Source: Gammaproteobacteria bacterium (GTDB lineage: Bacteria > Pseudomonadota > Gammaproteobacteria > Pseudomonadales > Pseudohongiellaceae). From it: a stretch of 64,000 bases of DNA. Under the pieces are notes generated by a model. That model saw nothing but the letters and a program-made list of their open reading frames with translations, made no database searches and was not told the DNA's origin. Positions 31,692 to 35,809 of the stretch are shown here, piece after piece; positions within the stretch are counted from its first letter, which is position 1, and each line of letters opens with the position of its first letter. The position numbers were made by a program, and so were the translations under genes. The stretch spans positions 124,001 through 188,000 of the forward strand of contig PASF01000008.1 of the NCBI GenBank assembly GCA_002711845.1, given 5' to 3'.

Positions 31692-33428
31692 ATGCTTACC
31701 ATCAGAGAATCTCTGGAAGCCGTCATCACCGAAGCACTGATCAAAGTGACCGGCCAAAGTGATGCCAAAGCGCAGGTTATTTATGCCACCAGGGCCGAAT
31801 TCGGCGATTATCAGGCCAACGGCGTCATGTCTGTGGCCCGTCAGCTGCGCACCAATCCTCGCGAGCTCGCCGTCAAGGTGGTCGCAGAGATCAACGGCGG
31901 CGATCTGCTGGCCCGGGCCGAGGTCGCCGGCCCAGGCTTCATCAACCTGTTCCTGAGCACCGACGCCCTGGCCCAGCGTGCCAGCGAGTGTCTTAACGAC
32001 ACTGACAGACTGATTCTGCCGGTCAACAAACCGCAGACCATTGTTGTTGACTACTCCAGCCCCAACCTGGCCAAGGAAATGCACGTCGGCCACTTGCGCG
32101 GCACCATCATCGGCGACGCCCTTGTGCGCATCCTGGAAGCCCTGGGGCATTGCGTTATCCGGCAGAATCATGTGGGTGACTGGGGTACCCAGTTCGGTAT
32201 GCTGATCGCGCACCTGAAAACGCTCAGTGATGACGACAAGGCACTGGCCAGAAACCTGTCCGACCTGGAAGTGTTTTATCGTGAAGCCAAGCAACGCTTT
32301 GATGCAGACCCGGGCTTTGCTGAACTGGCGCGCAGCTATGTGGTGCGTTTGCAGCGCGGCGACCCGGAATGTCTGGAGGCCTGGCAGCGCTTCATCGACG
32401 AATCCCTGCGCCACTGCGAAGACGTTTACGCGTTACTGGGCGTTGGCCTGAAACGCAGCGACCTGTGCCCGGAAAGTTTTTACAACAACGAACTGGCCGA
32501 CATCGTCCAGCAACTGGAAAACAAGGAACTGCTGACCCGATCTGAAGGTGCCAATTGCGTCTTTCTGGAGGAGTTCACCGGCAAGGACGGCAGTCCGCTA
32601 CCCGTGATTGTACAGAAAAGTGATGGCGGTTATCTGTATGCCACCACCGACCTGGCCGCCGTCAGGCACCGATGTCACCAGCTGGGTGCCGACCGCGTGC
32701 TGTATGTGGTGGATGCCCGGCAAAGCCTCCACTTTCAACAGGTCTTTGCCGTCGCCCGGCGCGCCGGCTTTGCCCGCAGCGACAGCCATCTGGAACACAT
32801 AGCCTATGGCACCATGATGGGAGAAGACGGCAAACCCTTTAAAACCCGAAGTGGCGATACCGTCAAGCTGCGCGAGTTGCTGGATGAGTCCATTCGCCGT
32901 GCCTTTGCCCTGGTCAGCGAAAAGAACCCGGACCTGCCGGAAGCGGACCGTCAACAGATCGCTGATACCGTCGGCATCGCCGCTGTCAAATATTCGGATC
33001 TCTCCAAGAACCGCACCAGTGATTACATCTTTGACTGGTCCAGCATGCTGTCGTTTGAGGGCAATACCGCGCCCTATCTGCTGTATGCCTATGCGCGCAT
33101 TCAGAGCGTGCTGCGTCGACTTGCAGACGAAGGCGCCACACCGGGCAATCGCATTGTACTGGAGGCCGCCGAGGAGCGTGCGCTGGCCATGAAAGTGCTG
33201 CAGTTTGCCGAGATCGTTCGTCAACTGGGGCTGGACTGTTACCCGAATCAGCTGTGCCTGTACCTCTATGAGCTGTCCGGTACCTTCATGAAGTTCTATG
33301 AAAGCTGTCCGATCCTGAAGGCGGACGCCGAGCTCAGGCAGTCGCGTCTGGCGCTGGCGGCGCTGACCGCCCAAACCCTGAAGCGCGGCCTGAATCTGCT
33401 GGGCATAGAGCCACTGAACCGGATGTGA
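31692..33428 (+). CDS. argS: Arginyl-tRNA synthetase
   Basis: 578-residue class I synthetase. The N-terminal Add-1 domain (to about 115) precedes SSPNLAKEMHVGHLRGT, which holds the HIGH-type motif. Catalytic parts include NHVGDWGTQFGML, DGGYLYATTDLAA and YGTMMGEDGKPFKTRSGD, the last in place of a classical KMSKS, as is usual for ArgRS. The C-terminal DALR anticodon-binding domain (APYLLYAYARIQSVLRR onward) is complete. The gene ends against a repeat-bearing spacer. Confidence 0.97.
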   Translation: MLTIRESLEAVITEALIKVTGQSDAKAQVIYATRAEFGDYQANGVMSVARQLRTNPRELAVKVVAEINGGDLLARAEVAGPGFINLFLSTDALAQRASECLNDTDRLILPVNKPQTIVVDYSSPNLAKEMHVGHLRGTIIGDALVRILEALGHCVIRQNHVGDWGTQFGMLIAHLKTLSDDDKALARNLSDLEVFYREAKQRFDADPGFAELARSYVVRLQRGDPECLEAWQRFIDESLRHCEDVYALLGVGLKRSDLCPESFYNNELADIVQQLENKELLTRSEGANCVFLEEFTGKDGSPLPVIVQKSDGGYLYATTDLAAVRHRCHQLGADRVLYVVDARQSLHFQQVFAVARRAGFARSDSHLEHIAYGTMMGEDGKPFKTRSGDTVKLRELLDESIRRAFALVSEKNPDLPEADRQQIADTVGIAAVKYSDLSKNRTSDYIFDWSSMLSFEGNTAPYLLYAYARIQSVLRRLADEGATPGNRIVLEAAEERALAMKVLQFAEIVRQLGLDCYPNQLCLYLYELSGTFMKFYESCPILKADAELRQSRLALAALTAQTLKRGLNLLGIEPLNRM

Positions 33429-33436
33429 CCGCCATG

Positions 33437-33488
33437 GATGGCGGAAATGCCGTTTTTGCAGGAGCAAAAAACGGCGGACCGCCAAGGC
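33437..33488. repeat. 52-bp direct repeat, copy 1, folding into nested hairpin
   Basis: This sequence recurs without mismatch at 33536-33587. An inner stem GCCGTTTTTGC / GCAAAAAACGGC (one bulged A) is closed by an AGGA loop, and an outer stem TGGCGG / CCGCCA encloses it. Size, hairpin form and intergenic place suggest a REP-like dispersed element; it can also serve as a terminator for argS. Confidence 0.85.
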
Positions 33489-33513
33489 CGGTAATTGCTC
33501 CTGCATTACCGGC
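33487..33513. repeat. Hairpin between the two 52-bp repeats
   Basis: GCCGGTAAT and ATTACCGGC form a perfect 9-bp stem around the loop TGCTCCTGC (33496-33504). The loop is the exact reverse complement of GCAGGAGCA at the tip of both 52-bp repeats, so the three hairpins could pair loop to loop. Confidence 0.75.
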
Positions 33514-33535
33514 ATTCTTGCCGTCCTGGCAGTCA

Positions 33536-33587
33536 GATGGCGGAAATGCCGTTTTTGCAGGAGCAAAAAACGGCGGACCGCCAAGGC
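33536..33587. repeat. 52-bp direct repeat, copy 2
   Basis: Identical to the copy at 33437-33488, offset by 99 bases. It has the same nested hairpin with AGGA tip. Confidence 0.85.
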
Positions 33588-33611
33588 AGCTGACTTCGAT
33601 TGGGACGCCGC

Positions 33612-33717
33612 TCGGGACTGGGTGGAACACCTTCAGGGGACGCCGTGAATCCATCCGTGGAGGCTCTTGTGCGGCCTCCCTGCCGCACAAGCCCCTTCAG
33701 TTGCCACCCAGTCCCGA
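33612..33717. repeat. Long inverted repeat with nested hairpin (intergenic palindromic element)
   Basis: TCGGGACTGGGTGG (33612-33625) and CCACCCAGTCCCGA (33704-33717) are perfect 14-bp inverted arms. Within them CTTGTGCGGC-CTCCCT-GCCGCACAAG (33666-33691) forms a second perfect stem. The look is that of intergenic palindromic elements in gammaproteobacterial genomes. No transposase is attached. The remainder of the argS-htpG spacer, 33718-33895, shows nothing that I can name. Confidence 0.7.
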
Positions 33718-33895
33718 ACGGCTAGTGCCAAATGACAGTGTTACAGACCTCGTTTTATGCGACAAGCCACTGCCAGCGACGCTACTTCAGAGCGGGCGGG
33801 TATTCGGGCATCCGTCGAGGAACAATCAGGGCGCCGCAGGCGACCGTTCCGAGACCGATCCCGGATGGCCGTCTGCGGTGCCAATCGCTATTGCA

Positions 33896-35809
33896 TCAAT
33901 CGCAAAGTTCCAGCAGCAGCTTGTTCAGCTGCCGACTGAACCGCGCCGGATCCTCCAGCTCATTGCCATCAGCCAGGCTCGCCTGATCAAACAGCAACGA
34001 GATGAGGTCGGTGAAGCGTTCCTCATCCTGTTCCTGCTCCAGCTTGTTGATCAGCGGATGATCCGGGTTGAGCTCGAAGATGGGCTTGGTTTCCGGCACC
34101 GGTTGGCCGGACGCCTCCATGATCTTGCGCATCTGCGCACCCATATCATCATCATCCAGTGCCAGACACGCCGGGGAATCGGTCAATCGGTGACTGACCC
34201 GCGATTCCTTGATGCGATCACCGAGAGCTGTTTTCACGCGCTCCAGCAACGGCTTGAAGGTCTCTTCACGTTTCTCCTGCTCAGCCTTGTCGGATTCATC
34301 ATCCAGCTTGCCCAGATCCAGCTCGCCGCGGGTGACATCCTGCAGGCTCTTGCCATCAAATTCGTGCAGATGGCTCATCAGCCACTCGTCGATACGGTCC
34401 GAGAGCAACAGCACTTCAATGCCTTTTTTACGGAAAATTTCCAGATGCGGGCTGTTTTTTGCCGCCTTTTCCGAGTCGGCGATCAGGTAGTAGATCTTCT
34501 CCTGCTCCGGCTTCATGCGTGATACGTAGTCATCCAGGCTTTGATCCTGGCCTTTGGACTCTGGATGGGTGCTGTTGAACATCAGCAGTTTGGAGATATT
34601 TTCCCGATTGGAGAAGTCCTCACCCGGCCCTTCCTTGAGTACCTGGCCAAACTCTCGCCAGAAGGTGGCGTACTTGTCCTTGTCGTCCTTTTTCAATTTA
34701 CCCAGCATGTCCAGCGCACGCTTGGTCAGCGCACTGCGCATGGAATCGACGGCCGGATCTTTCTGCAGGATTTCCCGGGAAACGTTCAGGGAAATGTCAT
34801 TGGAGTCGACCACGCCTTTGATAAAGCGCAGATACAGTGGCAGGAACTGCTCTGCCTGATCCATGATAAAGACGCGTTGAACATACAGTTTCAGACCACG
34901 CACACCGTCGCGATTCCACAAATCAAAGGGTGCCCGTGTCGGTACGTATAACAGACTGGTGTACTCGAGCTTACCTTCTACCTTGTTGTGGCTCCAGCCC
35001 AGCGGCTTTTCGTAGTCATGGGAAATGTGTTTGTAGAATTCCTCATACTCTTCTGCCTTGATGTCGGTGCGCGGACGTGTCCACAATGCCTTGGCATCAT
35101 TGACGGCCTCGTATTCGGTCTTGTTGTCGCTTGCCTCACCGTCTTCAGTCTCGTTGTCGCTGGGCTTGGGCATCAGTACCGGTATGGCAATGTGATCGGC
35201 ATACTTTTTGACGATCTGTTTCAGGCGATAGCTGTCCGCGAATTCACGTGAATCCTCACGCAGGTGCAGAATGACCGTGGTGCCGCGTGATGCTTTTTCA
35301 GTCCCTTCAATTGTGTAATCCGATTCACCCGATGATGCCCAGTGCACGCCTTCGGACGTCGCAGCGCCGGCCTTGCGGGTCAGCACTTCAACCTTGTCGG
35401 CGACAATGAAGGCGGAATAGAAACCAACCCCGAACTGCCCAATCAGCTGAGAATCCTTTTTCTGATCGCCACTGAGTGACTCCAGAAATTGGGCCGTACC
35501 GGAACGCGCAATCGTCCCCAGGTTGCTGATCACATCCTCGCGTGACATACCGATGCCATTATCGGAAATGCTGACGGTACCGGCGTCCTGATCAAAGTCG
35601 ATAACAACTTTTGGATCAGGATCATCTTCGTATATATCCGGCCGCGACAACGCTTCAAAGCGCAGCTTGTCTGCGGCATCCGATGCGTTCGAAATCAGTT
35701 CGCGCAGAAACACCTCTTTATTACTGTAGAGGGAGTGAATCATCAGTTTCAGAAGCTGCTTTGCCTCTGTTTCGAATCCGCGCGTTTCCTTGTTAATTTC
35801 CGTAGCCAT
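33896..35809 (-). CDS. htpG: Chaperone HtpG (bacterial Hsp90)
   Basis: 637-residue ATP-dependent homodimeric chaperone. The N-terminal GHKL ATPase domain has [37 protein letters not shown] and [20 protein letters not shown]. The middle domain contains [21 protein letters not shown] and [10 protein letters not shown], and the C-terminal dimer domain is complete ([15 protein letters not shown]). Only 37 bases separate the start from the terminator of the operon upstream, so its promoter must overlap or precede that stem; a sigma32-like site lies there. Confidence 0.97.

Follow-up and report, generated by a model that had tools for sequence, protein, structure and literature searches.

Three dispersed families of small palindromic elements in the gap between the convergent genes argS and htpG of a Pseudohongiellaceae genome

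REP, REPIN and BIME sequences (RAYT, GTAG super-family) are the closest described counterparts of the elements reported here, which are likewise small dispersed palindromes, lie mostly behind genes and often occur as inverted dimers. Integron attC sites are alike in presenting a folded strand whose unpaired bases are conserved and whose stem letters vary; neither a core-site motif of the attC type nor a cassette array was noticed by eye. For REPs, copy numbers are given as usually above 100 (PMC2817692), and many families with 20–100 copies or fewer are described, along with REP ends that often supply a stop codon and with CGTC REPs, in which a stem of 8–9 bp and a loop of 4–5 bases are accompanied by a tag lying unpaired at the end (PMC3733652). 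For the inverted repeats of the TIRYT type the consensus GGGG[AT][CG]A[CG] is stated in PMC6006769, and excisions and insertions of REPINs have been followed by deep population sequencing (PMC3116915).

We analyzed a window of 64,000 nucleotides from a 3.59-Mb draft genome of 15 contigs. According to the listing of open reading frames the gap at 33429–33895 lies between the convergent genes argS (31692–33428, plus strand, stop codon TGA at 33426–33428) and htpG (33896–35809, minus strand), both names being taken from the initial annotation. That annotation had described in this gap two 52-bp direct repeats, a hairpin between them and a separate inverted-repeat element, and all three were recovered. 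The repeats (33437–33488 and 33536–33587) are 100% identical and lie 99 bp apart from start to start, the hairpin has the arms 33484–33495 and 33505–33516, and the inverted-repeat element of about 116 bases (33607–33722) has 19-nt arms (33607–33625 and 33704–33722) that are 95% complementary. A fourth element, e4 (33796–33873 and arms), had gone unlisted, as had the position of the first hairpin immediately next to the stop codon of argS.

Using the models R1 for e4, R2 for e1 and R3 for e3, we could assign the content of the gap to three dispersed families: e1 is present three times (+,−,+), e3 and e4 once each. The first e1 copy (33426–33481, plus strand, 76.7 bits) holds most of the first 52-bp repeat and is composed of the hairpin CCGCCA-tgga-TGGCGG, an AAATG linker and a second hairpin with a GC-AGGA-GC apex; the copy starts with a TGA, and this triplet is also the one that terminates argS. 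The second copy (33481–33535, minus strand, 63.2 bits) is inverted and is the hairpin seen between the repeats, with different stem letters and the same AGGA apex. Most of the second 52-bp repeat is held by the third copy (33527–33580, plus strand, 50.1 bits), in which the left arm of the first hairpin is replaced at the junction. The inverted-repeat element is e3 (33609–33730, plus strand in the orientation of the model, 125.8 bits); in the family, both the GGCAC-like tag (at the 5′ side) and the excess of G-U pairs belong to the opposite strand, which is the minus strand here. Finally, e4 (33796–33873, plus strand, 88.3 bits) has the core GTCGAGGAAC-AATCA-...-CGTTCCGAGAC within a locus-specific outer stem, and the 3′ end of the model match is 22 bp from the stop codon of htpG. 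Across the 64-kb window the three models gave matches nowhere outside this gap; among the gap pieces it was e4 which gave the strongest matches elsewhere in the genome. With Rfam 15 nothing in the gap reached the gathering score (nine sub-threshold matches, the best with E 0.0066 to a microRNA hairpin), and five e4 loci gave no match. We consider it likely that the gap was built up by accretion from three families of small palindromic elements without coding capacity, which moved from one intergenic site to another and came to rest in the slot between the two convergent 3′ ends; dispersed copies, folds conserved with paired changes (e1 and e4), element-free relatives and nesting are all observed.

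The e1 element is made up of two hairpins, one with the fixed stem CCGCCA/TGGCGG and one with a variable stem and the invariant GC-AGGA-GC apex. The alignment A2 took in 22 of the 29 e1 copies. In e1 94.1% of the cells pair and two-sided changes are found in 9 of 17 pairs; none of 500 shuffles reached four of the five measures, and the number of pair types was reached by 10 of 500. The initial annotation had preferred a chance local duplication should the 52-bp unit occur at this place alone. Instead e1 was found with R2 in 27 of 56 relatives belonging to 13 of 29 genera (E≤0.001), and ten times in the genome itself, or eight times when the duplicated contig ends of C6 and C14 are counted once. 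Since the pieces of the gap belong to families present at many other places, chance is excluded for them. An assembly artefact might be suspected because the identical 52-mers come from a single draft genome with duplicated contig ends elsewhere: over at least 2,500 bases the start of C14 is identical to the end of C6, a duplicated stretch in the assembly. However, the relative G013 has the first e1 copy in the corresponding position after argS, the relative G008 has a 54-nt match at 98% elsewhere, and the sister species G006 has the same composite of e1 copies at another gene. For the e1 family the explanation by chance or artefact is thereby refuted, and for the gap as a whole we give it next to no credence. 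An inverted e1 pair is located just behind the 5S rRNA gene at the ends of both C14 and C6 (L011:1–300 and L012:2231–2526).

The composite of G006 is again arranged +,−,+, its third copy being truncated at the start of a GGGGACGG palindrome. In both composites the first and third copies share their stem letters, and these letters differ from one composite to the other. The identity of copies 1 and 3 agrees with the recent duplication proposed in the initial annotation; the arrangement itself is not a one-off, as G006 carries it in a sequence variant of its own. We infer that in the window an inverted e1 dimer of about 99 bp would have been repeated in tandem one and a half times; such a partial doubling explains the 52-bp identity, of which gene conversion may be an alternative source. 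The composite of G006 (L039, G006:C1) and its flanking gene have a near-identical counterpart in a different genus, on a 6,459-base contig of G018 (L050, G018:C84), and this likeness reflects either a misbinned contig or a recent transfer.

The TGA at the start of e1 is present in 17 of the 22 aligned copies. It serves as the stop codon of the preceding gene in 6 of 52 contexts (four distinct genes), the contexts having been obtained from 76 matches by joining rows with the same flank and leaving out those of the window, which are the copies of L001. In this the head of e1 resembles the REP ends described in PMC3733652. Since argS ends with TGA in G006 and G011 as well and e1 is absent there, e1 inserted directly behind the argS stop codon.

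We also considered whether the gap could be a bidirectional intrinsic terminator for argS and htpG that has grown by local duplication. Convergent genes and stable hairpins fit a terminator region, and the minus strand of either 52-bp repeat carries a pair of terminator-like sites that overlap, making 4 in all against an expectation of 0.9 (sd 1.1); no such sites were found on the plus strand of the gap, at e3 or at e4. The sequences of the gap, however, recur at many unrelated loci, and relatives manage with 30–106 bp between the two genes, so that we regard the terminator explanation as very improbable. The gap, taken between the BLAST ends, has this short length in 11 of the 15 genus genomes; at E≤1 neither e1 nor e4 is matched in any of these 11 gaps, and ten of them are without all three families. 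The short gap of G009 contains a partial 19-bit match to the apex of e3 (E 0.0042), and a similar small hairpin was seen by eye in that of G007. Longer gaps are found in G013 (308 bp), where the e1 that follows argS as in the window is accompanied by an e3 in the other direction, in G006 (539 bp, two e3) and in G011 (6,533 bp, two e3 plus genes). The simplest account of the argS–htpG site is that various REP-like families have inserted there, nesting in and displacing one another. As judged by eye from the translations, the region of G011 (L087, G011:C48:4600–12600) encodes an ABC-transporter ATPase as well as sulfotransferase-like and glycosyltransferase-like genes, the two e3 being at the argS side.

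Eight e4 loci of the genome were compared with G006, G011 and G013 wherever both flanks were available, using rough alignments judged by eye. At L002 the e4 element lies in the loop of a pair of GGGGACGG palindromes, and all three relatives have the palindromes without e4. At L008 an e1 is nested in an arm of e4; the nest is also present, decayed, in G011, and G006 has a weak e1 at this site (37.7 bits). The e4 of L006 is absent in G006 and represented by a deletion scar (decayed) in G013. That of L007 is missing from the corresponding position in G011, although an e3 lies nearby in this genome; the same site carries e3 and a possible e4 arm in G006 and G013. At L004 there is a chimera of e3 and e4 where G011 and G013 have a whole e3 and G006 has neither. 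The e4 of L003 is common to G013 and unrecognizable in G006 and G011, that of L015 is common to the genome and G013, and for L005 no relative with both flanks was among the loci compared. From the element-free relatives, the e1 nested in e4 and the e4 inside a palindrome pair we conclude that the elements were inserted. Many of the e4 copies must be old, since those of L003 and L015 are shared with G013, that of L006 is decayed there and an arm-like remnant of L007 is found in G006 and G013. No clear or consistent target-site duplication, a feature of MITEs along with terminal inverted repeats and a parent transposon, was seen by eye at the element-free sites. The idea that the e4 core inserts into ready-made palindromes was rejected where the sites could be read by eye, because the element-free relatives lack both arms at L002, L006 (G006) and L007 (G011). 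A generation of the arms from the host flank was hinted at by the one arm remaining in G013 at L006, which is better explained by a deletion between AACAG repeats.

The e4 model was built from the alignment A1 with 25 of 26 copies, the nested copy of L008 being left out. It finds 11 copies in the genome itself and 29, 27, 18, 16, 14, 1, 26, 5 and 21 copies in G001–G006, G010, G013 and G014, respectively. No match was obtained in G007, G008, G009, G011 and G012, so that 10 of the 15 genus genomes are positive under a strict filter which misses decayed copies such as the broken e4 that G011 keeps at the L008 site. Outside the genus, but within the family, two further genera are represented by three genomes with weak matches (two in G020, one each in G046 and G055), and among 369 genomes sampled from the class our genome alone was positive at E≤1e-4 with 12 candidates scored per genome. 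Three of the weak relatives, L159 (G046) as well as L160 and L171 (G020), have kept GAACARTCAG and CGTTCTGCA with other flanking letters and are perhaps an outgroup of e4. A search of named genomes with the core letters gave nine stretches, three of them from Pseudohongiella sp. HyVt-330; the other six were taken as chance, and in the four of them that were looked at the core is missing its 3′ half. A phage origin of e4, suggested by one viral contig which matched the core letters, was likewise rejected as a chance match, since in this contig, too, only the 5′ part of the core is present and the sequence does not adopt the e4 fold.

An alignment of 84 distinct e4 copies fitted to the model has 89.7% of the cells paired and two-sided changes in 27 of 29 pairs; none of 500 shuffles reached any of the five measures, and sliding by one column reduced the pairing to about 40%. 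The 25-copy MAFFT alignment gave 86.5% pairing and 19 of 29 pairs with two-sided changes, with the number of pair types being reached by 11 of 500 shuffles and the other four measures by none. Between copies the outer arms (columns 3–10) are identical to 0.353, compared with 0.324 by chance, and the chosen core columns to 0.875. Within a copy 865 of 919 arm cells pair, and a small number of copies, among them L005 and L101, have arms that are related to each other. The wobbles in the arms are unevenly distributed, with 88 G-T and 15 A-C (80 of 84 copies, arms with fewer than 10 matches being dropped); copy by copy, G-T predominates in 40 of the 84 and A-C in 9. The same excess, 44 G-T and 4 A-C, is seen in 24 copies that were found by their letters alone, without the model. 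Therefore either the fold of one strand is under selection or mutation is strand-biased. Upstream of e4 the motif TGGCAC, a pattern chosen after looking, is present in 14 of 87 cases (shuffled mean 1.4). Twenty regions with closely spaced e4 matches (L179–L198) were picked for this spacing, and 18 of them contain a −/+ pair of neighbours; L182 has a +/− pair and L195 has all copies on the plus strand.

All ten e4 copies examined in the genome (the eleventh, weaker match was not among them) face a converging stop codon with their 3′ end at a distance of 15–63 bp. Among the distinct copies with a known neighbor a gene converges on the 3′ end in 69 of 82 cases (median 36 bp), and among 38 flank clusters 32 are converging, 5 opposite and 1 unknown; genes were called for these counts with a codon-usage script and no annotation. 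In most cases, then, the model strand of e4 runs antisense to the gene closest to it. In the window e3 and e4 point away from each other as a mixed pair, and each is directed at the end of the gene next to it. The orientation of e4, the G-U wobbles enriched on one strand and the invariant core letters with covarying stems could also mean that the elements, e3 and e4 in particular, are kept chiefly as RNA or DNA signals at gene ends, the folded strand stopping or cutting antisense or read-through transcription into the 3′ end of the neighbor. However, the orthologous genes in relatives are without the element, 5 of the 15 genus genomes have no e4 match, there is no T-tract terminator at e3 or e4, and a transposase acting on a single strand would select a strand-specific fold too, so that we judge a primary signal function to be rather unlikely. 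Simple hopping, on the other hand, leaves the fixed orientation of e4 towards stop codons without explanation, and the orientation together with the strand bias leaves room for some role at gene ends.

Returning to the spread of mobile elements as the preferred reading, we suppose that one folded DNA strand would be moved in trans; the enzyme would most probably be a transposase of the Y1/HUH type, in line with what has been proposed for REPs. The initial annotation had suggested looking for a RAYT gene elsewhere in the genome. Two Y1 proteins of 239 and 322 aa are indeed encoded, scoring 61.4 and 39 bits against the model of the REP-associated tyrosine transposase (cut-off 80), and neither gene has e1, e3 or e4 nearby. 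The gene of the 239-aa protein (L016:744–1463) is flanked by a GGGGACGGAGG...CCTCCGTCCCC palindrome unrelated to the three families. The short Y1 genes of five relatives (L107, L109, L110, L111 and L113) have GGGGACGG palindromes around them, in one case GGGGTCGG, which are repeated and nearly perfect over 40–80 bp. These palindromes, a family other than e4, resemble the TIRYT repeats described in PMC6006769. The 322-aa protein (L017:1709–2677) has an end resembling the C-terminus of DnaA; a long Y1 open frame of 326–345 aa is present in 14 of the 15 genus genomes, that of G003 having 119 aa. In total 26 loci with 24 Y1 genes of the genome and its genus relatives were surveyed, usually up to 1.5 kb on each side. 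They gave no BLAST match at E≤0.1, none with R1 at E≤10 and none with R3 at E≤0.001; R2 found a single 12-base chance place (E 0.87) that lies in two overlapping loci. A RAYT link of e1, e3 and e4 was thus rejected for the 26 loci, with none of the elements adjacent.

The three families differ in this respect from REPs and REPINs, as e1, e3 and e4 do not adjoin a Y1 gene at these loci. The initial description of the gap as REP/BIME-like holds for the lifestyle of the elements (small, dispersed, intergenic palindromes behind stop codons, in inverted pairs and nested); that they are the REPs of the REP-type transposase of this genome is not supported by the loci surveyed. The stems of e3 and e4 are much longer than the short REP palindromes of 20–40 bp, and the outer arms of e4 differ between copies. 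Upstream of the elements the frequency of GTAG was 10 of 87 for e4 (shuffled 13.9), 6 of 46 for the reverse strand of e3 (7.7) and 5 of 48 for e1 (6.1), and GGAG was not enriched either. Copy numbers are modest in the genome itself, and the highest per genome, with a limited number of candidates scored, are at least 29 for e4, at least 14 for e1 and at least 47 for e3. With the CGTC REPs described in PMC3733652 e4 shares that it is REP-like without a linked transposase, and many e4 copies contain an internal CGTC; in e4, however, this motif is inside a longer stem and not terminal and unpaired. Among the REP papers that the literature searches brought up we found no description of these families, and the letters of e1, e3 and e4 led to papers that were unrelated, judging by title and opening of the abstract. 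As e4 combines a conserved core, copy-specific arms, a wobble bias on one strand and a preferred orientation at gene ends, it makes testable what moves REP-like elements without a linked transposase; a second testable question is whether it is targeting or function that gives rise to this orientation.

The e3 element spans 120 alignment positions, and its model is based on 11 copies and loosely constrained (effective number 0.95). R3 finds it ten times in the genome, in 27 of 56 relatives and, with 9 candidates scored per genome, in 64 of 369 genomes and 57 of 272 genera sampled from the class. As the copy of the window has no Rfam match at the gathering score, a widespread structured element may lack a catalogue entry. 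On the reverse strand of e3 the motif GGCAC, again chosen after looking, lies upstream in 21 of 46 cases (shuffled mean 2.4), and a gene converges on the 3′ end in 28 of 44 cases with a known neighbor (16 opposite), gene calls being less reliable outside the genus. In the orientation of the model 28 A-C and 8 G-T wobbles were counted, which amounts to a G-U excess on the reverse strand; this asymmetry is weaker than it appears, since a good number of the copies have probably inherited one and the same position. It is conceivable, and we advance it as a tentative idea, that e3 and e4 form a class of mobile hairpins undescribed in the papers found, which insert some 36 bp downstream of stop codons with one orientation preferred, combine an invariant core with self-complementary arms proper to each copy, guard convergent gene ends with a folded strand antisense to the neighbor, and are interchangeable at one locus. 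The two families have a common architecture of a long stem, a conserved core and a 5′ GGCAC-like tag, the tag being present in a minority of the copies, and we infer that they are related. At L004:1450–1575 the left half of an e3 is joined to the core of an e4.
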